Positions 8,595 through 40,545 of a stretch of 64,000 nucleotides of DNA are shown one piece after another. Each line of letters starts with the position of its first letter. The stretch's first letter is position 1. Origin of the DNA: Aeoliella mucimassa (GTDB taxonomy: Bacteria > Planctomycetota > Planctomycetia > Pirellulales > Lacipirellulaceae); contig NZ_CP036278.1 of the NCBI RefSeq assembly GCF_007748035.1, positions 1,488,001 through 1,552,000 on the forward strand, written 5' to 3'. The translations under genes were made by a program, and so were the position numbers. The notes under the pieces were generated by a model. The model made no database searches. It had not been told where the DNA came from and saw nothing but the letters and a program-made list of their open reading frames with translations.

Positions 8595-10631
8595 TCAATC
8601 TTTCGAATCGCGCCAGTGCACCAGTGGCCCGACGTCTTCGCGTTGACGAACTTTGACTTGCTGCGGATGGTGGTCCGCGAGGTCCTCGACCTTTGCACTC
8701 ACTTCGATCGAGAATTTTTGCCCCAGATAACGACTCACTTGATTCAACTGATCGCCGTTGAGAGCTTGGTTGTAAATCAGGATTTCGGCCATATCGCCGT
8801 GGAAAAACGCAGGATACGCGGGCGAGCGGCCAATCACTTTTTGCGATACATACGCGCGGCCGAGAGGAGCAGTGTCGACCCCTTGCAGCTCGCCGTTGAT
8901 GAAGATGCCGGCTCGATTTCGCGACGGGTGGTAGGCGTAGGTCAGCACCACTGCTTCGTCGACTTGCACCAACCGCCGGGTGGCCACCGAACCAAGGTGC
9001 AAACCACCGTTGCTGCTGCTCGGCGGCGTCGCATAGACCCGACCCCAGTACATGCCGGGGAACAAGCGGTCGCAGATCTGCAGCGAGTGGATTTGATGCG
9101 GTTCGCGGCGCGGGGTATTGGGCTGGTGGACCGGTCCGTTGTAGTTGATCAGCTGACGCGAGGTTTTGACCGACTCGCCATGCGTGGTTGGCGGGGCGAA
9201 GTCGCTAGCCGAACGGAACACGAAAAACAGGGTTTGGTCGGGCGTCGACAGCAGCGGCTCGGTCGTGATGTAGTCGTTCTCGCCATCGAAGTGCACCGAA
9301 GGGCGGTGGCCAATGCCGTCTTCAACCAGCGTGGGCCGAGCCTCGGGCTCGTGCTGCCAGGCGTCTTCGTTGGTGTCGCCATCGTTTGCGGCTCGGTCGG
9401 GCCAAGCGAGGATGTGTCCCTCGTCGTCGGTCACCATCCGCGACTCGGCGGTGAGCCAGAGTGCCAGATTGCGGGTGATCGGCAGCGTGGCCGTGGGTGC
9501 CGCAGCGGAGGCCAGATTGTTATTCGTGGGCCCAGCAAATCGCGTGGTGCTCGCTATCCCGTAGTCGAGCGATGTCCGACGAGGCGAAGCAACCACCGAG
9601 TTGCCAGCCAGTACATGGACTTCTTTGCTGGTTCCGCCGGGGTTCCAGAAGACGACCTCGCCGGAGTGCACGTGCACCGAGACTTCGCGGTTGTCTTTCA
9701 CCTGCATGCTGAAGTCGGCGGTCAGACTGACGATTTCGTTCTTCTCCGTGCGTACCGCGAAGCCGCTCGCCTGGTTCGAGATGTTGGCCGACACTTTGCC
9801 CGCTTCGAGTCGACAGGCCGAAGGCGACTCGACAACCAGCTCGGCCGGACCAACGAGGTCGACCTTGCCACCCGCGGCAAGGTGCAGCTCGATCCAGCCT
9901 TGCTCAATCGCGAGGCGGCTACCAGGGAGCAGGGTGTCGCCCTCGACAAACTCCTGAGCACCAGCCGCCCAGCGGGCATCACGGATGTTCGCGATCGAAG
10001 CGACCGGCTTCGACGATTCGTCGTCGGTCGCCAAACTGTCATGCGTGGTCGGTGTGTCGCCGGTCCCGGCGATCGTATCGGGTGCGGAGTCACCAGCAGC
10101 GGCAGAATTGCCAGTATTTGGCTGGTTTTCCGCTATTTGTGGCGTGTTGTCTGCTGGTGGATCGATCGTGTCGGGAATGCTGTTGTCTGGGCTGTCGGAG
10201 ATTGGCTCGGTGGGGGGAGTCGTCGTGGATTGGTCGTCGTTCGACTCCACGGCAACAGTTGCCGAGTCGCGCGAACCGTTGCTTGCGACGAACGCCCAGG
10301 TGGTAACGGCCAGCAGCAATGCTGCAGCGATCGCCCAGGGGAGGGTGGTCCGTCGCCAGTCGTGTTTGGGCGTTTTCGATGGAGCTTCGCAGGTGAGCGT
10401 CCCGAGCTGGGCCGCCGAGATTTGTTCCATCGCCACGCGCGAAGCCATGCTGTCGCGGGCTTCGAGCATCAGTTCCGCATGCAGCCGGCAGTAATCCAGA
10501 TACAACCGCCGCGCATGGGGATCGCTAGCCAGGCGGTCTTCGAGCCGCTGGGCGTCTTCGGCCGAGATCGTACCCGCGATGCGCTGGTCGATCCATTGCC
10601 AAACGGGATCTTGGTAACCGGGGCGATTCAT
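8595..10631 (-). CDS. FecR-domain and LamG-domain transmembrane protein (candidate anti-sigma partner)
   Basis: 678 residues. Residues 1-90 form an acidic helical cytoplasmic region (WQWIDQRIAGTISAEDAQRL, as in planctomycete FecR-type anti-sigma proteins). One membrane segment follows at about 95-115 (WAIAAALLLAVTTWAFVAS), then a Ser/Thr/Pro/Asp-rich linker. The FecR-like beta domain at about 210-345 includes LAAGGKVDLVGPAELVVESP and VHSGEVVFWNPGG, and a LamG/concanavalin-like domain occupies about 380-640. The ATG shares one base with the stop of the upstream sigma factor gene (TGATG), implying translational coupling. By family knowledge it may hold the sigma factor at the membrane and sense an outside carbohydrate or surface signal; that is inference. 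Confidence 0.9.
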   Translation of the reverse strand: MNRPGYQDPVWQWIDQRIAGTISAEDAQRLEDRLASDPHARRLYLDYCRLHAELMLEARDSMASRVAMEQISAAQLGTLTCEAPSKTPKHDWRRTTLPWAIAAALLLAVTTWAFVASNGSRDSATVAVESNDDQSTTTPPTEPISDSPDNSIPDTIDPPADNTPQIAENQPNTGNSAAAGDSAPDTIAGTGDTPTTHDSLATDDESSKPVASIANIRDARWAAGAQEFVEGDTLLPGSRLAIEQGWIELHLAAGGKVDLVGPAELVVESPSACRLEAGKVSANISNQASGFAVRTEKNEIVSLTADFSMQVKDNREVSVHVHSGEVVFWNPGGTSKEVHVLAGNSVVASPRRTSLDYGIASTTRFAGPTNNNLASAAAPTATLPITRNLALWLTAESRMVTDDEGHILAWPDRAANDGDTNEDAWQHEPEARPTLVEDGIGHRPSVHFDGENDYITTEPLLSTPDQTLFFVFRSASDFAPPTTHGESVKTSRQLINYNGPVHQPNTPRREPHQIHSLQICDRLFPGMYWGRVYATPPSSSNGGLHLGSVATRRLVQVDEAVVLTYAYHPSRNRAGIFINGELQGVDTAPLGRAYVSQKVIGRSPAYPAFFHGDMAEILIYNQALNGDQLNQVSRYLGQKFSIEVSAKVEDLADHHPQQVKVRQREDVGPLVHWRDSKD

Positions 10632-11203
10632 CAGGCTCCATTCCTGGCTTGTTGGCTATCTACACATTTGAGCAAAGCCATGCGAATGCGACGCAGGGAG
10701 TTGCAAATGCTCTGCGACGACCGTTTCAGCAGCTTGGCCATTTCGAGCACCGGAGTTCGCTCTTCGTACGACATTCGCACTAATTCACGATCGGCACCTT
10801 TGAGCTTCGACAAACAGTGCTGCAGGTTCGCCAGGCGGTCGCCGGACTCTTCCAGCCCGGCGGTTGCTTCCAGTTGCGAGTCGGAAAGCATGGCTACCAG
10901 ATCGTCGCTAAAGAGCAGCTTCGACCTCGAGTTTGCTCGGCGGTACATCTGCACTTCGTAGTAAGCGACCTTCAAGGCCCAAGCGGTGAAATTGCTGTCC
11001 TTCTCAAATTCATCGAACTTACGCCAGAGCGCCATGACGGTCTGTTGATACACGTCTTGAGCGTCGGTCGCGTTGGAGATAATCGCAAATATGTACCCGA
11101 AGATCTGACCTTGCCGCGCGGCTAGGAGTTCCATGAACTCGGCCGCCCGATCGCCGTCGGAGTCGGGTGCACTGCTTGGGTCGTAAGGATTGATCACTCG
11201 CAC
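10631..11203 (-). CDS. ECF RNA polymerase sigma factor, planctomycete/verrucomicrobial type
   Basis: 190 residues. Region 2 is visible as ARQGQIFGYIFAIISNATDA then QDVYQQTVMALWRKFDEFEK with AWALKVAYYEV, and region 4 as LKGADRELVRMSYEERTPVL followed by the helix-turn-helix KRSSQSICNSLRRIRMALLK. This matches the Rhodopirellula/Verrucomicrobium sigma-70 subfamily. It would direct RNA polymerase to a specific promoter set. It overlaps the FecR-LamG gene by one base, so the pair is almost certainly one transcript. The divergent neighbour at 11567 also encodes LamG-type surface proteins and is a plausible target, but no promoter motif could be identified. Confidence 0.95.
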   Translation of the reverse strand: MRVINPYDPSSAPDSDGDRAAEFMELLAARQGQIFGYIFAIISNATDAQDVYQQTVMALWRKFDEFEKDSNFTAWALKVAYYEVQMYRRANSRSKLLFSDDLVAMLSDSQLEATAGLEESGDRLANLQHCLSKLKGADRELVRMSYEERTPVLEMAKLLKRSSQSICNSLRRIRMALLKCVDSQQARNGA

Positions 11204-27703: not shown

Positions 27704-27724
27704 CCCCTCCCTAAGCGGGAGGGG
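27704..27724. terminator. Hairpin shared by convergent genes, covering a stop codon
   Basis: A perfect 8-bp stem CCCCTCCC/GGGAGGGG (27704-27711 with 27717-27724, loop TAAGC) lies between the converging DUF1080 and DUF1552 genes. It includes the DUF1552 TAG stop at 27711-27713. There is no long T run, so termination strength is uncertain. Confidence 0.5.
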
Positions 27725-29093
27725 CGGCCGATGTGGGGAATAGTTGATGCGAGTCGCAAGCGAATGGGCCGGTGCTATCCGCAAATGAAGCGGTGGGACA
27801 TCCGACCGTATTGAGCATGCTGACAAATAGATTCGACATCGGTGTCTCTTCGGCCATCTTCAAGTAATGGCCATGATTCATGCCCATCGACTTGCCGCCA
27901 GCGAGCACCAATGGGTAGTTCACTGCGTTGTGTGTTGTACTGCAGGCACTTCCATACAGCACCATGGTGCTATCAATGAGTGGTCCCCGAGCATCGTGGG
28001 TCTCGTTGAGCCGCGTGAGGAAGTAGGCGAACTGTTCGGCGAGCCAACGGTCGTAGCTGCCCCATTCTTCCCAGTGCCCATCAGCCTGATCGTGGCTAAT
28101 TGCGTGGTGGCCCTTTTTGATGCCAAGGGCCAGCTTCGGGAAGTTCTCACCGAAGCCCATGCCATCTTCGCGGGCCATCATATAGGTCAGCACCCGAGTC
28201 ATGTCGGTCTGCAAAGCGAGCACCATCAGGTCGAACATGGTCCGCAGGTAGGCCGTGGGGTCGACAGCCGGATTGCAGTCGAAGTTAATCTGTGTACCGT
28301 CGACCTTCGGCAGTGGAGTGTCGAGCCAACGATCGTTGCGAAGAATTTGCTCCTCGACTGAGCTTAGCGAGGTCATGTACTCCTCGAGCCGTTGGCGATC
28401 GGCCTTGCCCAATTTGCGTTCGAGCGATTCGGTGTCTTCCATCACCAGATCAACAATCTTCTTGCGTTGAGCCAGCGATTGTCGGCGTTCGTCCGAGGAG
28501 GAACCACCAGCCGGGGCGAAGTATCGCTCGAAGATCGCTCGCTGGCGATTTTCGGAGGGGATTGGTCGGCCGCCGTCACCGAAGCTGAGCGTCGATACAC
28601 GCGACTTGTAGCCGATGCCGCCGTCGGTGGAGAGGATTAGCGACGGGTAACGGGTGTCCTTGGTGAAATGGCGAGCGGCAACCTGATCGACGGAAATTTG
28701 GTTCTGATAAACCGAGCCACGCAGGTCGCCACCGGTCAGCCATGTGTCGGCTGCTAGATGCCCGAGCACGCTCCGGCTATTGGGATGGCTGAAGCCACCG
28801 AGGATCGACATCTTGTCGCGGAGTGGATTGAGCGATTCGAGCACTCGGGTGTTTTTGTAATCAGCCCCGCTGCCCATCGGAAACCAGCTCCACTCCTGGT
28901 GGGCGGGATTCGACTCTGGCGGCAAGCTCGCACCGTTGGGGAAATATACAAAGCACATCCGCTTGATATCGGCCGCTGGCGGCGCGGATACAGTGTTTGC
29001 GAGTCCCATGGCCTCGAGGTATGGCAATGCACAAGCGACTCCCACGCCTCGCAGCATCGTGCGGCGGTCGATCTTCCAGCTTTGTCGACTCAT
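27711..29093 (-). CDS. DUF1552 exported protein
   Basis: 460 residues starting MSRQSWKIDRRTMLRGVGVA, with an Arg-Arg export signal and hydrophobic core, followed by MCFVYFPNGASLPPESNPAH, VLGHLAADTWLTGG and SVDQVAARHFTKDTRYPSL, all typical of DUF1552. MVLYGSACSTTHNAVNYPLV is the usual C-terminal motif. The biochemical role is not established; it resembles the DUF1501 sulfatase-like group. It follows the DUF1592 gene by 42 bp on the same strand, and GGGAGAA precedes the ATG. This pairing is characteristic of planctomycetes. Confidence 0.93.
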   Translation of the reverse strand: MSRQSWKIDRRTMLRGVGVACALPYLEAMGLANTVSAPPAADIKRMCFVYFPNGASLPPESNPAHQEWSWFPMGSGADYKNTRVLESLNPLRDKMSILGGFSHPNSRSVLGHLAADTWLTGGDLRGSVYQNQISVDQVAARHFTKDTRYPSLILSTDGGIGYKSRVSTLSFGDGGRPIPSENRQRAIFERYFAPAGGSSSDERRQSLAQRKKIVDLVMEDTESLERKLGKADRQRLEEYMTSLSSVEEQILRNDRWLDTPLPKVDGTQINFDCNPAVDPTAYLRTMFDLMVLALQTDMTRVLTYMMAREDGMGFGENFPKLALGIKKGHHAISHDQADGHWEEWGSYDRWLAEQFAYFLTRLNETHDARGPLIDSTMVLYGSACSTTHNAVNYPLVLAGGKSMGMNHGHYLKMAEETPMSNLFVSMLNTVGCPTASFADSTGPFACDSHQLFPTSAAPPA

Positions 29094-29135
29094 GTGATTG
29101 TTCTCCCTAGCAACGGCAAGGTTGCATCAGTCCTT

Positions 29136-31877
29136 TTATTCGCCTGAATTGGATACGATACTCGTCTCGACGCCCAGGAACGCGGGGCTTTCAACAATCG
29201 CTCGAATCGCGGTTTGCACGCGATACTCATCGGCCACTACCCGATCGACAATCGCATCGATCTGAGGCTCATCGGCGTAGTTCGTATCGCGACCCAGAGC
29301 ATAGGCCATCAGGTGATCGACTACCGATTTAGTGACCGCATCGGGCTGCTTTTCGAGCAGGTAGGTTTTCAGTTCGTCGATGCCATTCACCACCGTACCA
29401 TCGGGAAGTTCCGATCGTGAATCGATGGGGCGGCCTTTCGCTTTCAGTTGGTAGCGACCCACTGCGTCGTAGTTCTCGAACGCGACGCCATAGGGATCGA
29501 TCTTGCGATGGCAATCCACACACGATGGTTTGTTGCGATGCAATTCCAGTTGCTCTTTGAGGGTCAGGTTCTGGAATCCAGGTGTCTCGGGATCGAGTTG
29601 GGGTACGTTCGGTGGGGGAGGGGGAGGGGGGGTGCCGAGGATCTTATCCTTCAGCCAGACCGCTCGCTTGATTGGATGGGCCTGCGTGCCATCGGAGTGC
29701 CCGCACAAGAACGCTCCTTGCGAGAGCAGCCCGCCACGATGCATGTCGGGCGTGATCGACACCGGCCGGAACTCCCCGCCTGTGACTCCTTCGATACCAT
29801 AGAACTCGGCTAGGTTCTGGTTGAGCATGGCAAAGTCGGAATCGACAAACGTAAGCAAGCTCAGGTTGTTTTCGATCACATGTTGGACGAAGTACTTGGT
29901 TTCGAGGGCCATGTCGCGTTTGACAAATCGCGTGTAGTCGCGGTAGGCACCGATGTTTACGTTCATACCGGAATGGCGATCGAGCCGAAGCCATTCGGTG
30001 GTGAATGAGTCGATGAACCGCTCGAACCGCTTGTCGGCGATCATCCGCTCCACCTGCAGACCGAGGTTTTCACGCAATGTGCCTTGTTCGGCTAGTTGGT
30101 AGAGTTCTTCGTCCGGAGGGGAGTTCCACAGGAAATAGGCTAGCTTCTCGGCCAACGAAACATCGGCAGCAACCTGGTCGAGAGGAGTATCAAGATATAG
30201 GAAGTGAGGCGAGCAAAGCGCGGCAATCAGTACTTCCTTGACTCCTTGATGGTAGTTGTCGTAGTCCCCGCGAATGGCTTGCCAGAACTCAAAATAGCGA
30301 TCGAGTTCCACGTCGGTAAGATCTCGACGAAATGCCTTGGAGATGAATCGATTGAGCACCTCGCGGGTGTAAGCATCAACGTCGGTTTCTTTCAGTGGTG
30401 AGTCGAAGAAGATGCCCGTATGGCTGGCCGGCGGCCAGACCTCGTAGTAGGGGGCTTCGAACTCAATCGAACGAACCACAATCGGAACCCCACTTTCGGA
30501 GTTCGATTTCACGAGGTGATCGTTCCAAATGCCGAGGATCATAATGTTGGCAAGATCACCGGTATCGTTCAGATCGATCACCGGTATCGGCAGGTTCTCG
30601 AGGTAACCACGGAATTCGTATGTCGCAGGCTGTCCTGGTTCGGCTGACACCACGTGAGGTTCCGTGAGTTCGGTGTACTCCATGCCATCGTCGGTACGAT
30701 TCCCCACAAACGCTCGAATCGCAGCGGTGCGTGGTTCTTCGGTAGTCGGTTCCGCTGTTTCTCCTTCCGCAGTTTCTGCCTCTGCGGATTCTTCTTCAAT
30801 CGCGGCGAGCGAGGCCACCACGCGGGCGATAATCGGGCCTTCGCTTGGGTAGCACTTGCGAAGCAGCAGCTTCATGTTTGGCGAAGGTCCTTGCCACGAC
30901 TTCGGCGGCAACTCGGTATGCGGCAATGCCGAATAGAGCAGCAACCCATCATCGACCACACGGTAGCGATTACCATCGGAGCCACGCATGCCGATGCCGA
31001 TATCAGACTCGATGGTCCGTAATGCAGCGGTTTCCTCTTCGGTAGTCCCGCTTCTGGGATGCCCTTGGTCGTCGAGTATTTCGGCTCGAACGTGCTCTCT
31101 GGGAATCGGTGCCGACTGGTAGCCACCAATCACCGCGGCATGGTGTCCTTTGCCGACATCGGTGCCCAAAGTGACTCGATAGTGATGCGATTCCGGCCGC
31201 TCGCCTGTGACGATTGCCTTGTCGAGCGCTTTGCGAGCGATGGACTGAAAGTACTCCACATGCAACGGAGAAGTCACCAAGGCCTCGCCGCTGTTGGTAA
31301 AACCCATTTTCGACTTGGCTTCGTTCGGCAGGTCCTGCTCAAAAGCGATCGGGAGATGTAGTAACTCACCTAATGTATAGGCGTACTGTTCGCGGGTTAG
31401 GCGTCGCAGGTTCGCGTTGACTACTGGTTTGGAAAACTTACGCGACAACTCGATCGAGCTGGTCATCCATTCCACCATCACGCGACGTTCTTCGTCGGTG
31501 GGCTGGGCGTCGTAGTCGGGGGGCATGTCGCCTTGGTTGATCATGTCGAGCGCGAAATCCCAATGTTCGGCATCCGACCCATCAATCATATTTGGATTGA
31601 GATCATCAATCTGAAAGCCAGCTTCTTGGGTATCGGCCCCATGGCAACCATAGCAGTACTGCTCCAGCAGCGGCTGAGCTTTGTTTTGGTATGAATCGAG
31701 CATCTGCTTCGTTGCATCCTCTTTCGAGGAGCTGGCCGAAGAATCAACCGGATCGACAACCGGTGCTTCCTCAGCATGGGCCACCAGCACTAAGGCCGAT
31801 ACGAACAAAACCGAAGCGGAAAGCACGCGGGCGTCGAAGCGACGTTTCGTCAGGGCGCGTGACTCACGCTGATTCAT
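29136..31877 (-). CDS. DUF1592-type cytochrome c-like exported protein (PSD/DUF1587/1592/1588/1585)
   Basis: 913 residues. Signal peptide region SASVLFVSALVLVAHA. A heme-binding CYGCHG motif at about residue 73 fits a planctomycete cytochrome c domain. Further along: LRRLTREQYAYTLGELLHLP (DUF1587), EVLNRFISKAFRRDLTDVEL and LIAALCSPHFLYLD (DUF1595/1592), LDRHSGMNVNIGAY, GGLLSQGAFLCGHSDGTQAH PIKR with PPPPPPNVPQL (DUF1588), and a C-terminal CVDCHRKIDPYG second heme-like motif with DUF1585. The enzymatic role is unproved; the family is periplasmic and cotranscribed with DUF1552. Start 31877 is used rather than 31931 because it directly precedes the export signal. Confidence 0.93.
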   Translation of the reverse strand: MNQRESRALTKRRFDARVLSASVLFVSALVLVAHAEEAPVVDPVDSSASSSKEDATKQMLDSYQNKAQPLLEQYCYGCHGADTQEAGFQIDDLNPNMIDGSDAEHWDFALDMINQGDMPPDYDAQPTDEERRVMVEWMTSSIELSRKFSKPVVNANLRRLTREQYAYTLGELLHLPIAFEQDLPNEAKSKMGFTNSGEALVTSPLHVEYFQSIARKALDKAIVTGERPESHHYRVTLGTDVGKGHHAAVIGGYQSAPIPREHVRAEILDDQGHPRSGTTEEETAALRTIESDIGIGMRGSDGNRYRVVDDGLLLYSALPHTELPPKSWQGPSPNMKLLLRKCYPSEGPIIARVVASLAAIEEESAEAETAEGETAEPTTEEPRTAAIRAFVGNRTDDGMEYTELTEPHVVSAEPGQPATYEFRGYLENLPIPVIDLNDTGDLANIMILGIWNDHLVKSNSESGVPIVVRSIEFEAPYYEVWPPASHTGIFFDSPLKETDVDAYTREVLNRFISKAFRRDLTDVELDRYFEFWQAIRGDYDNYHQGVKEVLIAALCSPHFLYLDTPLDQVAADVSLAEKLAYFLWNSPPDEELYQLAEQGTLRENLGLQVERMIADKRFERFIDSFTTEWLRLDRHSGMNVNIGAYRDYTRFVKRDMALETKYFVQHVIENNLSLLTFVDSDFAMLNQNLAEFYGIEGVTGGEFRPVSITPDMHRGGLLSQGAFLCGHSDGTQAHPIKRAVWLKDKILGTPPPPPPPNVPQLDPETPGFQNLTLKEQLELHRNKPSCVDCHRKIDPYGVAFENYDAVGRYQLKAKGRPIDSRSELPDGTVVNGIDELKTYLLEKQPDAVTKSVVDHLMAYALGRDTNYADEPQIDAIVDRVVADEYRVQTAIRAIVESPAFLGVETSIVSNSGE

Positions 31878-32242
31878 AGTGACAACCTGGGTAGGGTGAA
31901 TGGCGTCGCGGTTGGGTGGGCGACTGGCCACGATTGGCCAAGTCGAAACCGCGAGTGACAGGGAGTAGTGTCGAACGGAGTGGGCTGTATTCGCTCGTCA
32001 CATTGTAAGTGGTTGTCCGATACAGGTGTCAAGCAGAATTAGGCCTTCTGACGAAAGATAGTCGAAATTATCGACGTCATCGTTTTCGACTTTGATAATC
32101 GGGGGAAACAGCGCACCCCCCTGAAGAGAGGAGTTACAAGAAACCAAAAAATGGTTGCCGCATTCCTACACTTTTGGCGCAATGAAGTTACGCATTTGAG
32201 TCATGCGAATGGAGGCCGCTTACTAGAACCTACGCGCTTCGA
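31878..32242. other. Intergenic stretch, nothing recognised
   Basis: 365 bp between the DUF1592 start and the kinase-tubulin stop. It is AT-richer than the surrounding genes and presumably contains the DUF1592 promoter. No hairpin with a T run or conserved site was found. Confidence 0.45.
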
Positions 32243-34645
32243 TTAACGTCGAATCGTTGCGTCTTCACCAACGGCTGCGGCAGAACTTGGTTCAAGATCG
32301 AATGCATCGTTGGGGGAAGCATCCGTGGAGAATACCTCTTTCGATGCAAAGTCGCCTGCACTCGAAGGATCGTGCGAACGAAGCAGGTCCTGCCATTCGA
32401 TATCTTCGCGGGCGTGGACGCGCAGCGCAGCGTCGGCGATATCGGGATAGAACTCTGCCAGGCGAGCAGCAACCTGCAGCGGCTCGATGCCCAAGGCCAT
32501 TGCACCTACTACGTCGGTCATGGTAGTTGATTCGTAGCTGCCCATTTCGGCAACCTGGCTGGCCACGGCGCGGGCCAGCGGGGAGCTCTTCGACCCAATT
32601 TCAAAAGTTGCTCGCTTGTACTTGGGAGCCGGCAAACTTTGGCTAAGCCGCTCAAAGAGTTCTTCTGGGGTGTCGCACAGGTCCACGAAGCTGAACGCGC
32701 AAGATTTCAGGTGGAAACCTGTTTTCTGGTCAACCGCTTGGCAATTGGCGAAGACGGAAGTCGCAACGGGATTCGAGGCTTCCAGTACGATTTGTTCGGC
32801 GATCGACACAAGGGTCGTGTTCTTCCGATTGCCGCGCTGGCTCGAGGGGATGATCATCCAGTAGACCGATTGGAAAGGAGCCTTGTCGCTCTCAAACCGC
32901 TCAGCAGGACCTGTCGGCGATGCAGCTCCGCTGTTGCCATTTTGCTGGGAGTGGGTCAGTTCGGTCAGAAGCGAATATGCATTTACCAGTGGCAGCGAAT
33001 CGGTAGTACCAGCAACCCGCTCAGGTGTCACCAGCATGGCATCCACTCGAATTGAGATACCCAGGTCGCCGGCGAGCGACTTTGCTGCGTTGCCCAGGTC
33101 GATCAGGATGCCGCTGCCGGTACCGCCGCCGGTGCTAGCTATCACGACCACCCGTAACTGCTTGGCATCAGGATTCGATTGCATCAAGGCAAACAAGCTG
33201 GCATACATCCGGCTGAGTATTTGCTCCGCATGGTCCACCGCAGCAATGCGACCCAGAGGACGATAGCCGCGGGTTTCTAGTGAACGCGGAATGTTGTACA
33301 GCCAGCGACGACTCAGCCAGCGGAGTAGCTGTTGAGAGTCGTCGCGATACTCCTTGGGACGCTTCAGCGGCATGTGAATCATGTTATCCGGCGAAAGCGA
33401 TCCGGCACCTTCAAGGTAGGCGGCTTGCTTCAGCGTCTCGCGATCGGTATCGATCGCCAGAAAATTAATCGGCAATGGATTGGGCGAATCTTCCCCATCG
33501 ATTGTGGCCACCAGCGCCCGGGTAGCATTCATGGCATTCAGGCCCAGACCACCGGCACCCACTACCAGAGTTGGTATCGCTACCGCAGAGGCTTCATTGA
33601 TTTCAGGGAGTGAGATGTCCTTCACCCCTTCGTCGTGCGATAGGTTAGCGAGCTCGTCTCGGGACCAGGACGACGAAGCCGTGTCGTTGGCCGGGGCGGG
33701 ATGGGTTTCTACTACTGGAGCGACGACAGGTGATGTAGGTACTGCGGTATTCGATGGCTTGACGATCGACGAAGTCGCGCCAGGACGCGCGGCAGCGGAT
33801 TGCCGGGTGGGGACGTGCGCAGCTTCGGAGGTTAGTGCAGCCACGAACTCCCGGCACGAGTTGTAACGTTGCTCCGGGCGTTTTGCGAGCGCCTTGGCTA
33901 CCACGCGACGATCCGATTCGGCCAGGCTGTGCAGGATCGGTTCGGCTTGTGTGTGTTGCTTCGCGAGTTGGGCGGGAGTACGGCCAGGGAATGGCAACTG
34001 GCCTGTGAGCATCTGTTGATAGACGATCGCCAGGCTGTATTGATCACTGCGAGGCGAGGGAGCATCGTCAAACACTTCCGGCGCAGAGTATCGCGGGGTC
34101 ATGCCACCCATCATCGAGTTCATCGACCGCGTTGCGAGTTCCTTCACCAGGCCGAAGTCGCCCACTTTTACGTGCTCGCCAACCACTAGCAGGTTTTCGG
34201 GCTTGATGTCCAAGTGTTGCAGCTTGTGCCGTTCTACCAGGCAGTCAAGCGCTTCAGCAGCATCCCGAAGATAAACAAGTAATTCGTCTCGAGGAATGCC
34301 TATGCGACCCGATTCCTGATTCTTGCGGAAGCAGGCGTCGAGGCTCATGTCGGCTAGTTCGGTGACGATGATCAACCGACCGTCGACAATCTCAAATCGT
34401 TCCAGCGAAATAACGAATGGGTGACGAACCGAACGGATGCGTTCGAGGCTCTTTAATTCACGCTCGGCAAGCTCTTCATCGCAAAGGCCGAACACAATCT
34501 TCACCGCCTTCTCGACACCGCCAGGGGCTGTGGCCCGCCAGACTTCGCCGTAGCCGCCGGAGCCAATGCGTTCAGTTGCTACGTAGCCATCCGGTAGTTG
34601 GACGCTAGGAGCAATGGTGGTCGTCGTTTCGGGGGCCGCTTCCAT
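32243..34645 (-). CDS. Ser/Thr protein kinase fused to a tubulin/FtsZ-like domain
   Basis: 800 residues from the ATG at 34645. Kinase domain at about 20-275: Gly loop GSGGYGEVW (28-36), catalytic Lys49 in AVKIVF, HLDIKPEN (His144, Asp146; Leu replaces the usual Arg of HRD), DFG at 163-165 and SAPEVF. A Ser/Pro/Ala-rich linker (275-350) leads to a second domain starting PTLVVGAGGLGLNAMNATRA, then INFLAIDTDRETLKQ and VVVIASTGGGTGSGILID (504-512), the GGGTGSG nucleotide loop of tubulin/FtsZ proteins. This fits the bacterial tubulin-like family (Pfam Tubulin_2). No membrane segment is seen. The FHA gene ends 67 bp upstream on the same strand, so the FHA protein is a likely phosphothreonine-reading partner. 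Confidence 0.88.
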   Translation of the reverse strand: MEAAPETTTTIAPSVQLPDGYVATERIGSGGYGEVWRATAPGGVEKAVKIVFGLCDEELAERELKSLERIRSVRHPFVISLERFEIVDGRLIIVTELADMSLDACFRKNQESGRIGIPRDELLVYLRDAAEALDCLVERHKLQHLDIKPENLLVVGEHVKVGDFGLVKELATRSMNSMMGGMTPRYSAPEVFDDAPSPRSDQYSLAIVYQQMLTGQLPFPGRTPAQLAKQHTQAEPILHSLAESDRRVVAKALAKRPEQRYNSCREFVAALTSEAAHVPTRQSAAARPGATSSIVKPSNTAVPTSPVVAPVVETHPAPANDTASSSWSRDELANLSHDEGVKDISLPEINEASAVAIPTLVVGAGGLGLNAMNATRALVATIDGEDSPNPLPINFLAIDTDRETLKQAAYLEGAGSLSPDNMIHMPLKRPKEYRDDSQQLLRWLSRRWLYNIPRSLETRGYRPLGRIAAVDHAEQILSRMYASLFALMQSNPDAKQLRVVVIASTGGGTGSGILIDLGNAAKSLAGDLGISIRVDAMLVTPERVAGTTDSLPLVNAYSLLTELTHSQQNGNSGAASPTGPAERFESDKAPFQSVYWMIIPSSQRGNRKNTTLVSIAEQIVLEASNPVATSVFANCQAVDQKTGFHLKSCAFSFVDLCDTPEELFERLSQSLPAPKYKRATFEIGSKSSPLARAVASQVAEMGSYESTTMTDVVGAMALGIEPLQVAARLAEFYPDIADAALRVHAREDIEWQDLLRSHDPSSAGDFASKEVFSTDASPNDAFDLEPSSAAAVGEDATIRR

Positions 34646-34712: not shown

Positions 34713-35837
34713 CTACGAACTGAGCGCGGCCAGCATCGGGGCGTGGGCAGACGAGGCCGACTCGCTCTGCACCACAGAAATACCCAGATCACGACAGGCG
34801 ATTTGGTCCTTCTCTGAAATTCCAAGTGGTAAAACAACTCGTATGCCTTGGGCAACGCAAGCCGCATTCACAATCTCGAGCCGCTGCAAGCGACGCGATT
34901 GATCGGCAATATCTCGGACCACTTGCGAGGCTAACACAAGATAGTCGGGAGGGGCGGTATCCATCGACTCGATGCAACCACCGCCGCCAGCGAAGTCGTG
35001 GAACACGATAGTGTGACCCAGTTCGCGGAGCGAATGCAGGATGCGGTGCGAGTCAGGAGCCGACGAGACCCAATCCCACGACATGCCGATTCCCAGTCCT
35101 TGCGACGGTTTGAGCGAAACCGCCACTTCGTCGAGTGCGTCGGCGGTATGCGGATTGAGGGATTCGCGGTGCGTGATATTCAGCAATAGATTGCCTGGTT
35201 GGCCGAGCGAAGCAAAATGCTCGGCTGCCAGATGCCAGCCCATCAGCTCGAGTCGCGAAGCAACGCGAGTCGGCAGCTTGGCATCGCCCTGAACCATCGA
35301 CTCGTCGACGGGCGGCAATATCCTGGCGGCTGTCATCAATGCAGCACCACTTGATGGATCGGTAAAGTAGCTCCAGCCAATCGGAATAGCTTGCAGCAAT
35401 AACGCTTCGTTCATGCTGCGCACCGCGGCCAGTTCAGGCGTAGTGCCGGGCAGCACGATCGACGGCTTCTTGCGCGGCAGCGGCTTGGTAAGCGTGCGTT
35501 GCAAACGTCCCAGCGAGGTGCATACGAACGTAAGTTCCACGTCGGCGATGCTTAGCGTGTCGCCATCGACTATTGGCGATTCACGAACGGAGCGCCCATT
35601 GAGCGCCGTTCCGTTAGTACTTCCCAGATCTCGCACACAGTACCCTGTTGGGGCACGCACGATCTCGGCGTGCTCTCGCGAAACCGATGTGGAGTTGATT
35701 TGGAACGATGCAGAGGCCGACCGACCAATCACAAATGGAAATTGGTCGATGTCTACGGTTTGAAGCTTGGTGCTGTCGAGTGGGTAGTACTCGAATCGCG
35801 GCCGTGCATCTTCAGCGGGTGGTGATGACGAAAACAC
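34713..35837 (-). CDS. FHA domain protein with degenerate EAL-like domain
   Basis: About 374 residues. FHA domain at roughly 28-105: FPFVIGRSASASFQINSTSV, SREHAEIVR and VRDLGSTNGTALNGR contain the phosphothreonine-binding Gly-Arg, Ser-x-x-His and Asn-Gly residues. The rest follows the EAL phosphodiesterase layout (AIPIGWSYFTDPSSGAALM, LGHTIVFHDFAGGGGCIESM, PPDYLVLASQVV, QGIRVVLPLGISEKDQI), but the EAL triad reads TAA and most metal ligands are absent, so it should bind rather than cut a nucleotide, if anything. Start: GTG at 35837 has GAGG 9 bases upstream; a TTG at 35846 is the alternative. It precedes the kinase-tubulin gene in one likely operon. Confidence 0.78.
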   Translation of the reverse strand: MFSSSPPAEDARPRFEYYPLDSTKLQTVDIDQFPFVIGRSASASFQINSTSVSREHAEIVRAPTGYCVRDLGSTNGTALNGRSVRESPIVDGDTLSIADVELTFVCTSLGRLQRTLTKPLPRKKPSIVLPGTTPELAAVRSMNEALLLQAIPIGWSYFTDPSSGAALMTAARILPPVDESMVQGDAKLPTRVASRLELMGWHLAAEHFASLGQPGNLLLNITHRESLNPHTADALDEVAVSLKPSQGLGIGMSWDWVSSAPDSHRILHSLRELGHTIVFHDFAGGGGCIESMDTAPPDYLVLASQVVRDIADQSRRLQRLEIVNAACVAQGIRVVLPLGISEKDQIACRDLGISVVQSESASSAHAPMLAALSS

Positions 35838-36025
35838 CTGATACAACCTCTGATATAGATTTGGGGCAAGTGGACGGGAAGGCGCAGTAATCCAACGGCG
35901 CGGGGCTTCCCGGCTACGAAAACTCTAGCTTATTAGAACTCGTTGGGCGTGGTAGCCAGATGTAAATGCTAGACTCTAGTGTTGTGCATGAGCGAAGAAC
36001 CTGAACCCTGGGGAGCCGCCTTCTC

Positions 36026-37411
36026 GTGAGCACCGCTACTACTGATTTGCGTGTCACAATCGTTTCAGCCGATCGAGAGTTGCTTTCCGACTTGTCGTGG
36101 ACGCTTTCGATCTTTGGTTACCACGTGACCGCTACCTGCGATTTCAGCGACGAAAGCCCTTGCCGTCGTGAACAAAAGCCTGGATTGTTGCTGGTGGATA
36201 CCCGCGACAATCCGGAGTTGGCTGACTTGCTGACGCAGCCAACGTCGCCTAGTTACGTCTATCGCATCGCCATCGAAACCGCCGAAGCAACCGAAAAGGT
36301 ACTGCTAAAGGGGGCCGACGACGTAGTTGGTTACCCCGTAAATACAGGTGAGTTGCTAACCCGTATGCGAGCCGGTGTCCGACGTTTGGAATTTGAGAAC
36401 CGCCTGCTTCGTTATGCGAAGTGCGATCCCGATACCGGTATCCTGACCCGGAACGCCCTCGTACAAACCCTACAATCGGCCAACGCGTCGCATCCCCCCC
36501 AATCATGCGTGGCTTTCGGTATTGACTATAGCGATCAGCTTCGTGAACAATACGGAGTGCACGCGATTCGGCATCTGCGATCGACTTTGGCCCGCTGCAT
36601 CGAACGGCGGTTAACCAACACCGAAACGTGCGGTGTGCTTGGTGATTACAGCATGCTGGTCGCGCTCGACCGTACGAAGGACGCCGCCCGCGAGTTTGCC
36701 AAAGCCATTACCGGCGATTTCTCGATCAGTGATACGTTGGTTCGCGAAATTCGGTCAGTGCCCACCATTTCGGCCGCTGTGGTCGAATGGAACAGCGAGG
36801 CTCCGGCCACCGAGTTGCTTGATCGTTGCGAATCGACCCTCGAGCAGGTGCACTATTTTGGTGGCGATCACATTGCGATGGCTTCCGAGGTACAGCAACG
36901 CATCGCCGAATGGCGGAGCGATCTCGACGAAGGGGTACCGTTTGAGAATGTGGTAGCCCAGGATCTGATGGAGTTGTTCCCTGCGATTCTCACCTGCGAG
37001 GAAGCTGCCCAGAACTTCGAAGCCGCGTTGCCAACCCCCGACTTGCAGCTACCTTGCATGCCGGTGGTGGACGAGGAGGGCAAACTGGTTCGGGCGCTAC
37101 AGTTCTCGAGCTTTTATCATCCCACCGACTCCTCCGGAGCGAACAAACTGCACACGGTGGAATATAATCAGCCGCTAAGCGACTTGTTCGAAGCCTTTAA
37201 TTCGAGCGAAAGCGATTACTTGGTAGTCGTCGACGATCAATTCCGTCCGCTCGGCTATCTGACCTGCGAAGGTTTAGCCAGCCTGGTGCTCGATCAAGTG
37301 AATGCGTCGCGTTACGCTGCCGAAGATAACAGCGATCGACACACTGCATCGCTCGTCGTGCCAGTGGTACCGATGCGTCCCAATGCCCACGCCAAGGCCA
37401 CGGCAACCTAA
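36026..37411 (+). CDS. Receiver domain with degenerate GGDEF and CBS-like C-terminus
   Basis: 461 residues, GTG start with GGGGAG upstream. Residues 1-120 form a receiver-like domain (LRVTIVSADRELLSDLSWTL, LLLVDTRDN, KGADDVVGYPVNTGELLTRM). Next is a GGDEF-like domain opening CDPDTGILTRNALVQTL, but the signature is reduced to VLGDYSMLVAL, so cyclase activity is unlikely. The last 130 residues contain two CBS-like halves (MPVVDEEGKLVRALQF, DYLVVVDDQFRPLGYLTCEG). The conserved receiver Asp may be the Asp of VDTRD. It diverges from the FHA-EAL gene across 188 bp. Its partners are probably in the same locus. Confidence 0.75.
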   Translation: MSTATTDLRVTIVSADRELLSDLSWTLSIFGYHVTATCDFSDESPCRREQKPGLLLVDTRDNPELADLLTQPTSPSYVYRIAIETAEATEKVLLKGADDVVGYPVNTGELLTRMRAGVRRLEFENRLLRYAKCDPDTGILTRNALVQTLQSANASHPPQSCVAFGIDYSDQLREQYGVHAIRHLRSTLARCIERRLTNTETCGVLGDYSMLVALDRTKDAAREFAKAITGDFSISDTLVREIRSVPTISAAVVEWNSEAPATELLDRCESTLEQVHYFGGDHIAMASEVQQRIAEWRSDLDEGVPFENVVAQDLMELFPAILTCEEAAQNFEAALPTPDLQLPCMPVVDEEGKLVRALQFSSFYHPTDSSGANKLHTVEYNQPLSDLFEAFNSSESDYLVVVDDQFRPLGYLTCEGLASLVLDQVNASRYAAEDNSDRHTASLVVPVVPMRPNAHAKATAT

Positions 37412-37639: not shown

Positions 37640-39583
37640 TTACTCGGTACCAGCCATGGCGGTGAAGTAATTGTTAACCGCGTGGTCGAGAATCTCTGGG
37701 GTTGCGACCGGGGGGATCTCGTTGTATTCGCAGTAGTGCAACGCTTGGTCGAGCAGGTCGCGGGCCTGGCACCGACGCAGAGGCCGATTGCACGACTCGT
37801 AGTGTCGCGCCAGCAAGTACTCCAGTGCATCGGGAGGGCAGGAGACCTTCAGCTTCTTCGAGAAGATGCCGAACAGCTTGACGAACTCTTCCCGTGATGG
37901 GGCACCGACCTCGATCTTGAACGGAATACGTCGCAAGAACGCGTCGTCGGCCAAATCGTGGGGTTCAAGGTTGGTAGAGAAGATAATCAGTTGCTCAAAT
38001 GGCACTTGTATCTTTTTGCCATTCGCCAGGCTCAGGTAGTCGATGCGGTTTTCGAGCGGAACAATCCACCGGTTCAATAATTCGGTGGGGTTCACGCGTT
38101 GCCGGCCAAAGTCGTCGATCAGCAAGCTACCGCAGTTACTCTTTAGCTGCAGGGACGCTTCACTAATATGGCTTACCGGATCGTGCTTGAGTTCCAGGCT
38201 ATCCATCGTGAGTTCACCACCGACAACGACCGTGGGGCGGCGGATTCGCACCCATCGTTGATCGTGTTCGTGGGTTTTCAGCAAGTTCGATAGTTGCGAA
38301 CCAACCCGTTCGTGGCAAGCTGCGTCGTAGAGCTTGATAATCTGGCCATCTTCGATAATGGCGTACGGGATCAGAATGTTCTGTCCGAAGCACCGAGTAA
38401 TACGCTGGGCGACGGTGGTCTTGCCGTTGCCAGGCGGACCGTAAATGAACATGCCTTTGCCAGCGCTAATCGCTGGGCCGAGTTGGGCGAGCATCTCGGG
38501 TTCGACGTTAATGTCCGAGAACGCTTCTTCTAACTGAGGGCGTTTTGGCTTCTCGGAGCGAATCGTCTGGGCTTCGACCGAATCGACATAGTCTTCCAGT
38601 GGCACAGGAGCCGGGCCAGTGTAGGCCGAGTCTTGCATCGCCAACCTTGCCCGCTCGCGACCTTTGTCGGTCAGCTGATAAACATAGTCACCAAGCATGG
38701 CCGAGCCAGTTGGTGCAATGTGTTGCCGATTACGAAGCACGGTGAAACGGTCTTCGAGAATCGGCAGCGGCAAGCAAATTAACTCGGCAACTTGACGACC
38801 GGTCATCGAGCCAGCGTTTTGCACTACTTTCAGGATCAAGTCTTCGATTACCGCACCGCTCAAACCGGTTTCTTCCAGCGAGCGAGGTTCAGGCGGCAAG
38901 AATCCATTGTCTAGGCCCAACGCTGCGACCAAGCTCTTGTCGGTCGTCTTGGCTTTACCACCAAAATCGGGAGGGGTCGCCGAGGGGCCAGGAGTCGGTG
39001 CGGACGGAATGGCCGAAGGGGCCAGCGTAGTCGATGGGGAAGGGCCTGCCATCGGAACCGGTGGATCGAAATCTGGATCGGGCGCGGCAACTGGCGGCAT
39101 CGTCGGCGACTCGCTAACCGCTTCCTCACTGCGGGGAATGGTGCAGTCTTCCACCGCTTCCAACGGGGAAGCCGCTGGCGGCGGTTCCGTTGCAGGGCGG
39201 CCAATCGGAGAGGTCATTTGAATGTTGCCAACCGGCGCTACTTCAGCAGCAGTCGGTCGGGCGGCGGTCATCGCCAGTTCTTCTTCCTGTTTCGCGGTGA
39301 GGTTGCGGCTGAGCTGCCAACCAAAGTTGGTAAGCTCAAATCGCTTGGGCCCGCCAGCCTGTCGCACCAGTTGCATTTCAATCAGGTGCGGAATGGCCTC
39401 CAGGCACTGCATGGCGTACGTGGGATTCGCAGGATCGAAAAGCTTGTCGTTGCCAGAACGGATCGCAGGCCCGCGTGTATCGGATCGGTTCGCGATTTCG
39501 AACGCGCCGCGATTCTTGGCAGCCATTTGAACGATTGCCTGTTCCTCGGCAAGCAGGTTTTCTGCGTGTTCTAGCGTGTGCAT
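37640..39583 (-). CDS. AAA+ ATPase with N-terminal winged-helix-like region
   Basis: About 647 residues from the ATG at 39583; an ATG at 39646 would add 21 residues, and neither has a good ribosome binding site. An N-terminal helical region (MHTLEHAENLLAEEQAIVQM) and a Pro-rich linker (about 130-235) precede a winged-helix-like segment (LILKVVQNAGSMTGRQVAEL to YVYQLTDKGRERARL). The AAA+ core follows: Walker A MFIYGPPGNGKTTVAQ, Walker B GSLLIDDFGRQRV, sensor LIIFSTNLEPHDL and DDAFLRRIPFKIEV. It should couple ATP hydrolysis to remodelling of a partner. Partner unknown. Confidence 0.85.
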   Translation of the reverse strand: MHTLEHAENLLAEEQAIVQMAAKNRGAFEIANRSDTRGPAIRSGNDKLFDPANPTYAMQCLEAIPHLIEMQLVRQAGGPKRFELTNFGWQLSRNLTAKQEEELAMTAARPTAAEVAPVGNIQMTSPIGRPATEPPPAASPLEAVEDCTIPRSEEAVSESPTMPPVAAPDPDFDPPVPMAGPSPSTTLAPSAIPSAPTPGPSATPPDFGGKAKTTDKSLVAALGLDNGFLPPEPRSLEETGLSGAVIEDLILKVVQNAGSMTGRQVAELICLPLPILEDRFTVLRNRQHIAPTGSAMLGDYVYQLTDKGRERARLAMQDSAYTGPAPVPLEDYVDSVEAQTIRSEKPKRPQLEEAFSDINVEPEMLAQLGPAISAGKGMFIYGPPGNGKTTVAQRITRCFGQNILIPYAIIEDGQIIKLYDAACHERVGSQLSNLLKTHEHDQRWVRIRRPTVVVGGELTMDSLELKHDPVSHISEASLQLKSNCGSLLIDDFGRQRVNPTELLNRWIVPLENRIDYLSLANGKKIQVPFEQLIIFSTNLEPHDLADDAFLRRIPFKIEVGAPSREEFVKLFGIFSKKLKVSCPPDALEYLLARHYESCNRPLRRCQARDLLDQALHYCEYNEIPPVATPEILDHAVNNYFTAMAGTE

Positions 39584-39768
39584 GGGGGGCGAGTCTCGCG
39601 TAAGTGCTGAGCCAAAAAAGACCTCAGCCAAAGCGTACCTCACCATTGTCTATTCGACCTGAGGTCGACACACAGAGTCGGCTGAAGAGGCGTGGTATAA
39701 CTGGCCAACCAATACAATCGCGCCAGTCGTTACCGTTTGCACTCAGGCACTATTCGCAGTTCCGAGAC

Positions 39769-40545
39769 CTAGTTGGCGGAGATTGGAGCCACCAGGGCTT
39801 CCATCAATAGGTCGGTGTTGACCGGCTTTGGGAACCAATCGTTGACTCCCTTCGAGCCAATTTCCAGGCCGTTTTCTTCGGGCGAAGTGCCGCTTACCGC
39901 AAACACGTAAGCTTGTTGATGTTGCAGATTGGCCCGGATCTGGCGAACTGTCGCAGCACCATCGCACCTCGGCATATGCATATCGACCAGGATCGCCCGT
40001 GGAGTATCGTGTCTATTTAGGTACTCCAGGGCTGCTTCCCCGTCCGGCACGGTGGCAACCGAAAACCCTTTGATGCGGAGGAGGTTGGCCAACAACTCAC
40101 GTTCGTTGTCCTGATCCTCTACAAGCAGCACCGTACGAGTGTCTTCGGTGGTCAGGCGGTTGCTGGTAGACGGATCGGGGCGGCGAAGCACGCGATTTTC
40201 GTCTAGTCGTCGAAGCGATTGCTGAATCTCGTGAAATGTATCCTGAGCGTCGTCGACCAGATTCATCCGCAGTTGTTCTCGTAGCAAATGCACGCCCACC
40301 GATACCGCATGCAGCTCGTTACGAATCGAGTGTCGCACTTCTCTAGGCAACCGCAGAAACTCTTCCCGCACCAACTGCGTATTTACTGCTTGGGAGGGAT
40401 CTACCTCATCGCGGACGATACGGATTTGCGGCGGCGCGTCGATACCCACTTTGGCCGAGCCCGATTGAATTCGGATAAAATGAATCGTGATTCCGATTTC
40501 AGGAAACGAGATTTTCTCATTCGCTCGACGGGAGAAAACTAACAT
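39769..40545 (-). CDS. CsrA-like RNA-binding domain fused to a response-regulator receiver
   Basis: 258 residues. Residues 1-49 match CsrA: MLVFSRRANEKISFPEIGIT, KVGIDAPPQIRIVRDEV, including the Arg45 equivalent used for RNA binding. A helical linker (about 55-118, with EVRHSIRNELHAVSVGVHLL resembling a dimerisation/His-box helix) leads to a receiver domain at about 135-255: TVLLVEDQDNERELLANLLR, AILVDMHMPRCDGA with phosphoacceptor Asp188, and WFPKPVNT with Lys240. This predicts phosphorylation-controlled binding to mRNA leaders. The ATG is preceded by a weak site. It is followed after about 185 bp by the AAA+ gene on the same strand. Confidence 0.88.
   Translation of the reverse strand: MLVFSRRANEKISFPEIGITIHFIRIQSGSAKVGIDAPPQIRIVRDEVDPSQAVNTQLVREEFLRLPREVRHSIRNELHAVSVGVHLLREQLRMNLVDDAQDTFHEIQQSLRRLDENRVLRRPDPSTSNRLTTEDTRTVLLVEDQDNERELLANLLRIKGFSVATVPDGEAALEYLNRHDTPRAILVDMHMPRCDGAATVRQIRANLQHQQAYVFAVSGTSPEENGLEIGSKGVNDWFPKPVNTDLLMEALVAPISAN

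Follow-up and report, generated by a model that had tools for sequence, protein, structure and literature searches.

A putative co-inherited gene module around a kinase-tubulin fusion in Planctomycetota

What a bacterial protein that joins a Ser/Thr kinase to a tubulin-like domain in one chain might do, and in whose company, is the question raised by a gene in the stretch of Aeoliella mucimassa DNA analysed here (64,000 nucleotides, hereafter the window). From the letters alone, the first-pass annotation had proposed that a single 800-residue chain carries a complete kinase followed by a domain of the tubulin superfamily, leaving the strand unstated. The Pfam search that it suggested bears this out: Pkinase (106.2 bits, cut-off 31.7, E 2.5e-30) and Tubulin_2 (94.7 bits, cut-off 27, E 8.8e-27) both score above their cut-offs, the tubulin-superfamily score falling at residues 360-634. 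The gene lies on the minus strand, the plus strand of 32243-34645 being interrupted by stops throughout. The features of the locus, in window coordinates, are as follows.

32243..34645, minus strand: kinase-tubulin fusion protein (P0001), 800 residues; AlphaFold mean pLDDT 82.8
33860..34585, minus strand: Ser/Thr kinase domain, residues 21-262, by Pfam
34208..34216, minus strand: HLD replacing HRD, residues 144-146
32744..33568, minus strand: Tubulin_2 domain (PF13809), residues 360-634
33110..33130, minus strand: T4-type loop GGGTGSG (GGxTGxG type), residues 506-512, from the sequence
32384..32500, minus strand: conserved C-terminal stretch, residues 716-754 (R742, R746, D748, W751), of nearly invariant columns
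34713..35846, minus strand: FHA-EAL protein, 377 residues, ending 67 bases upstream of the fusion's start; Pfam matches above cut-offs
36026..37411, plus strand: receiver-like/GGDEF-like/CBS-like protein, 461 residues, transcribed away from the FHA-EAL gene, with a 179-base spacer between them
37640..39646, minus strand: AAA+-like ATPase, 668 residues, of a cassette-specific clade; AAA profile 17.1 bits, below the cut-off of 21.2

The AAA, GGDEF and CBS labels in this list denote sub-threshold Pfam matches together with visible motifs. A longer open reading frame is possible for the fusion (874 residues, from an ATG at 34867), but its first codons would overlap the upstream gene, and the first invariant alignment columns stand at residue 20 of the 800-residue form.

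The fusion itself is not a discovery, since it was described in 2010 and repeated later, and the novelty first claimed for it falls away. Four FtsZ-like proteins of planctomycetes with an extra kinase domain at the N terminus were reported by Makarova and Koonin (2010, PMC2875224), the feature was restated in 2023 (PMC9871819), and in 2024 a tubulin-like domain was named as the commonest domain exclusive to cytoplasmic Ser/Thr kinases in Planctomycetota (PMC11032199). The planctomycete FtsZl1 proteins of the 2010 paper have, as far as its available text goes, the same architecture as the window protein, a kinase followed by Tubulin_2/FtsZl1, while the available part of the 2024 paper mentions no gene cassette around such kinases.

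By its residues the kinase domain is catalytically complete: Lys49, Glu63, Asp146, Asn151, Asp163 and Thr183 are kept in all 81 sequences counted (80 named loci and the window), and Lys49, Asp146 and Asp163 stand at the positions first given for them. The HLD triplet reported by the first-pass annotation is equally real and places the kinase half, as judged from its motif, among the non-RD kind. It had been taken for an oddity of this protein, which it is not, since the triplet is found in 45 of 45 homologues in one count and Leu145 in 81/81 of the larger set; such invariance argues for a trait of the family's working. A stand-alone kinase of 430 residues at another locus (L120, 9432-10724, plus strand) falls near the kinase subfamily of the fusion (phmmer 2.1e-41); its genome (G167) has no Tubulin_2 match, and no AAA or FHA-EAL match lies within the 20 kb of that locus.

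The tubulin half is more divergent. The Tubulin_2 profile matches all 39 homologous tubulin halves scanned, while PF00091 stays below its cut-off of 33 on the window protein, at 17.5 bits for the whole chain and 21.0 for the tubulin half alone. When a profile of this half, built from 38 loci, was compared with the PDB, 43 of the 44 chains at E values up to 10 were FtsZ, CetZ-type or TubZ, proteins of the tubulin superfamily, each match being weak and none individually significant (best E 0.023, to the CetZ-type chain 3zid). Direct alignment with E. coli FtsZ by hhalign covered 41 columns at 12.9% probability, and a fold search of the whole kinase-tubulin model in a viral library gave kinases or nameless rows among its best 50, with no structural match to the tubulin half. 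In the AlphaFold model, the strands and helices of residues 359-741 follow what reads as an FtsZ-type order, in which a GTPase domain leads through a core helix to a second mixed sheet. Assignment to the tubulin superfamily is supported by Pfam, by weak but uniform PDB profile matches and by this succession of strands and helices. The GGGTGSG loop that had been noted is present, at residues 506-512 rather than 504-512. A clear NxDxxD-like stretch, the form expected of the catalytic T7 loop, was not seen by eye C-terminal to the helix at 602-624 in the sequences inspected. Residues 445-472, around SRRWLYNIPRSL...RPLGR, are among the best conserved of this half, and R446, R447, W448, N451, P453, R462 and P463 are invariant in 51/51 kinase-tubulin sequences, the alignment used for conserved columns drawing on 50 of the 80 named loci.

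At 800 residues the window protein is short against the approximately 1,050-1,200 of most relatives, as are its nearest relatives (792 residues in L126, 765 in L127); all three are without much of the long stretch that, in most relatives, leads from the tubulin core to the conserved C-terminal segment. A recent truncation is made less likely by the short form being common to three lineages, all of which retain the segment at 716-754. Across 50 relatives, mean identity is 0.355 over residues 716-754 against 0.094 over residues 651-715. In the model, made with 51 sequences, pLDDT falls below 50 at residues 1-13, 174-177, 281-324 and 766-800.

The host genome (6.6 Mb, a single contig, 96.29% complete) contains one Tubulin_2 match and no PF00091 match, so that FtsZ is absent from it; 13 of 14 controls were positive. 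One might suppose that this lone tubulin takes over cell division in place of FtsZ. We regard that as very improbable, and have rejected it because Tubulin_2 is patchily distributed: it occurs in 37 of 59 relatives, in 2 of the 7 genomes of genus g270 and, across the phylum, in 22 of 392 genomes (19 of these over the cut-off), and a division protein should not be so readily lost.

The larger point, which the first-pass annotation missed, is that the fusion has conserved partner genes. The fusion recurs beyond chance, both domains being present in 45 of 46 fetched homologues, and de novo clustering of neighbours at the 46 loci returned the kinase-tubulin protein 46 times, the FHA-EAL protein 41, the AAA+-like ATPase 39 and the receiver/GGDEF-like/CBS protein 26, with only 6 occurrences for the fifth-best family; the counts are lower bounds, since some contigs are short. 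One locus (L113) was dropped from the fused set as a weak match, and another (L121), in which the fusion is truncated at a contig start, lies outside the 46. At least one partner adjoins the fusion in 77 of the 80 named loci, or in 76 if L151 is set aside, whose sole partner is a normal GGDEF protein; L151, L176 and L182, all with normal GGDEF proteins, were left out of the GGDEF count. Other neighbours are not conserved across the 46 loci, neither the secreted-protein genes downstream (27711-31931) nor the gene at 39769-40545 (minus strand), whose product joins a CsrA domain (residues 1-48) to a response-regulator receiver (139-251). The latter has relatives at E up to 1e-15 in 19 of 59 genomes, most of the matches extending across both domains, and two copies in the host genome. 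At locus L092 (4646-7165, minus strand) the tubulin protein of the cassette lacks a kinase and sits right beside its AAA gene, and no kinase ORF was found anywhere in the 17 kb of that locus; either natural loss of the kinase or an assembly effect would account for this.

The partners are arranged in three principal ways, the window being counted in the tally: AAA, fusion and FHA-EAL in succession (order A, 11 loci); FHA-EAL followed by the fusion and, in most cases, joined by a GGDEF-like gene transcribed divergently (order B, that of the window, 32 loci); and FHA-EAL facing away from AAA and fusion (order C, 31 loci), with 7 loci arranged otherwise. The GGDEF-like gene is linked to the fusion in order B only. 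Order A forms one clade (support 1.0), and orders B and C are scattered on the tree, some of their placements being weakly supported; their presence in several places implies that gene order changed more than once, and three orders on one tree imply that the partners stay together though their order changes. In each of three genomes (G396, G405 and G409) an order A cassette, whose fusion is long, coexists with an order B cassette, whose fusion is short. On our best reading, which draws on these sequence comparisons, the kinase-tubulin fusion is the core of a module whose genes are inherited together in planctomycetes, and the window holds one form of it.

The AAA+-like ATPase, in which a P-loop and an IDDFGRQR stretch are strongly conserved across 39 sequences, comes and goes with the fusion. 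Proteins of cassette type (over 355 bits) were found in 35 of 37 Tubulin_2-positive and 0 of 22 negative genomes (Fisher 3e-14, uncorrected for relatedness). The positive genomes without one are G402, where the AAA match is a fragment of 146 residues, and G442, which has an unfused Tubulin_2 protein with no kinase match and no cassette partner. Because the 355-bit line was drawn after the scores were known, a tree of AAA sequences was built as a check, leaving out the G402 fragment. Of the 47 sequences from cassettes or of cassette type, it gathered 46 into one clade (support 0.956), which holds none of the 20 sequences from fusion-less genomes and none of the 11 paralogues; a second copy in G434 exceeds 355 bits yet falls outside. 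The AAA gene and the fusion lie on different contigs in five genomes (G429, G433, G435, G438 and G445), and the AAA protein is still within the clade. An AAA-like paralogue is nearly universal, some match being present in 56 of 59 relatives, and its neighbours at two loci (L206, at 9517-11025, and L208) gave no functional clue.

These partners bear on two older proposals for tubulin-like proteins of this kind. Ten other planctomycete Tubulin_2 loci (L107 and L111-L119) are unfused, one of them (L116) having a kinase in a separate ORF, and AAA or FHA-EAL partners occur in none of the ten, which indicates that the fused and unfused kinds differ in setting. A role in remodelling membranes or in vesicle machinery was proposed in 2010 for FtsZl1 proteins at large, on the strength of operons that also hold vWA, GTPase and OmpA genes; the main text of that paper (PMC2875224) lists vWA, GTPase, kinase and OmpA partners. 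The same role for the present cassette seems to us improbable, since its recurring partners are different ones, FHA-EAL, AAA-like and GGDEF-like, and the vWA and GTPase neighbours of most FtsZl1 operons, a context feature outside the Pfam definition, do not recur. The chances are slimmer that the cassette is a defence or conflict module resembling the tubulin-including NTPase systems of Kaur et al. 2020. GTPase-centred systems that contain tubulins are described in the available part of that work (PMC7159879), and PADLOC kinase models match the kinase half here (best mad6, 5.3e-43). Those matches are limited to the kinase part, however: the NCBIfam MAD6 equivalog scores 78 bits against a cut-off of 460, the FHA-EAL and GGDEF-like proteins are without a PADLOC match, and vWA, GTPase or HSP70 partners do not recur at the 46 loci.

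The FHA-EAL protein (FHA 61.7 bits, EAL 34.5 bits) has an intact FHA domain, with G41, R42, S56, H59, N78 and G79 invariant in 34/34 sequences of an alignment that used 33 loci. In the model of the window protein (pLDDT 85.7), the EAL half matches solved EAL domains, with TM scores by target up to 0.77. Set beside c-di-GMP phosphodiesterases, which it resembles in fold, this family divides by gene order: all eight EAL catalytic residues are present in 8 of 10 proteins of order A and 31 of 31 of order C (39/41 together), against 1 of 32 in order B, and the window protein keeps 3 of the 8. These residues suggest that in orders A and C the FHA-EAL protein is a working c-di-GMP phosphodiesterase; in order B, the lineage of the window, its site has decayed. 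The receiver-like protein of the window scores below cut-off for GGDEF (18.2 bits; 23.8 required) and CBS (23.8; 24 required), with receiver-family matches below theirs too, and its GG[DE]EF motif reads LGDYS; the motif is lost in 27 of 28 cassette members with the order B gene, L135 keeping GGEEF. The phosphodiesterase-like site has thus decayed where a second decayed protein of c-di-GMP type is present. The T4 loop runs the opposite way, being canonical in 24 of 32 fusions of order B, 7 of 11 of order A and 6 of 31 of order C. The two patterns run along lineages, and a small number of events may lie behind them. As far as searches of the literature go, covering titles and the openings of abstracts, neither the cassette nor the EAL/T4 pattern has been described.

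The loop also opens the main rival to an assembling tubulin. With the T4 loop canonical in just 40 of the 81 sequences, the window's included, and so seldom in order C, GTP binding may have been lost in many members, and the tubulin half, without polymerising, could govern kinase activity as a GTP/GDP switch or as a dimerisation domain, in an ordinary signalling relay. The first-pass annotation had offered polymerisation under the control of phosphorylation or a kinase under the control of GTP, either of which may apply. The kinase half is far better conserved relative to the window (mean identity 0.62, against 0.39 and 0.20 for the tubulin half), and FHA and receiver-like partners are signalling parts. 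A dedicated ATPase is nonetheless retained alongside the fusion, and the model keeps the full two-domain order of tubulin-like helices and strands, so that we hold a mere switch to be somewhat unlikely.

Tubulin-driven assembly is the reading we prefer, and to the whole chain of steps, from assembly of the kinase through FHA docking and ATPase remodelling to a changed input in the window's lineage, we give a probability of about 0.42. The tubulin domain would bind GTP and assemble, gathering kinase domains that would phosphorylate one another and the linker at residues 272-355; the FHA protein would dock on the phosphothreonines so made, and the AAA+-like ATPase would extract subunits or remodel the assembly. 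With a docked partner that looks like an active phosphodiesterase in two of the three orders, the assembly would in orders A and C set or read c-di-GMP levels. In the window's order, the decayed EAL domain would serve as an adaptor instead of a c-di-GMP enzyme, and the input probably differs and comes from the receiver/GGDEF-like/CBS protein, whose CBS pair may bind an adenine nucleotide. Most of this we infer; what the sequences themselves carry is the architecture, the kinase and FHA residues, the co-inheritance and, in order B, a decayed EAL site. A bolder version is doubtful: a cytoskeletal signalling machine in which a kinase-bearing tubulin polymer, with its own AAA+ disassembly ATPase, is coupled in its polymer state to a second messenger by a c-di-GMP phosphodiesterase docked on phosphothreonine. 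Were it true, the fusion would be the only tubulin in bacteria without FtsZ, and the window would hold a derived version with a new receiver/CBS input.

Though on record since 2010, the kinase-tubulin fusion has had no function attached to it, and its partner set makes of this curiosity a testable system, with fixed partners, an ATPase that appears and disappears with the fusion, and a phosphodiesterase site that is intact or dead by lineage. If the tubulin half polymerises, it would be a tubulin with a built-in kinase, in bacteria that lack FtsZ.
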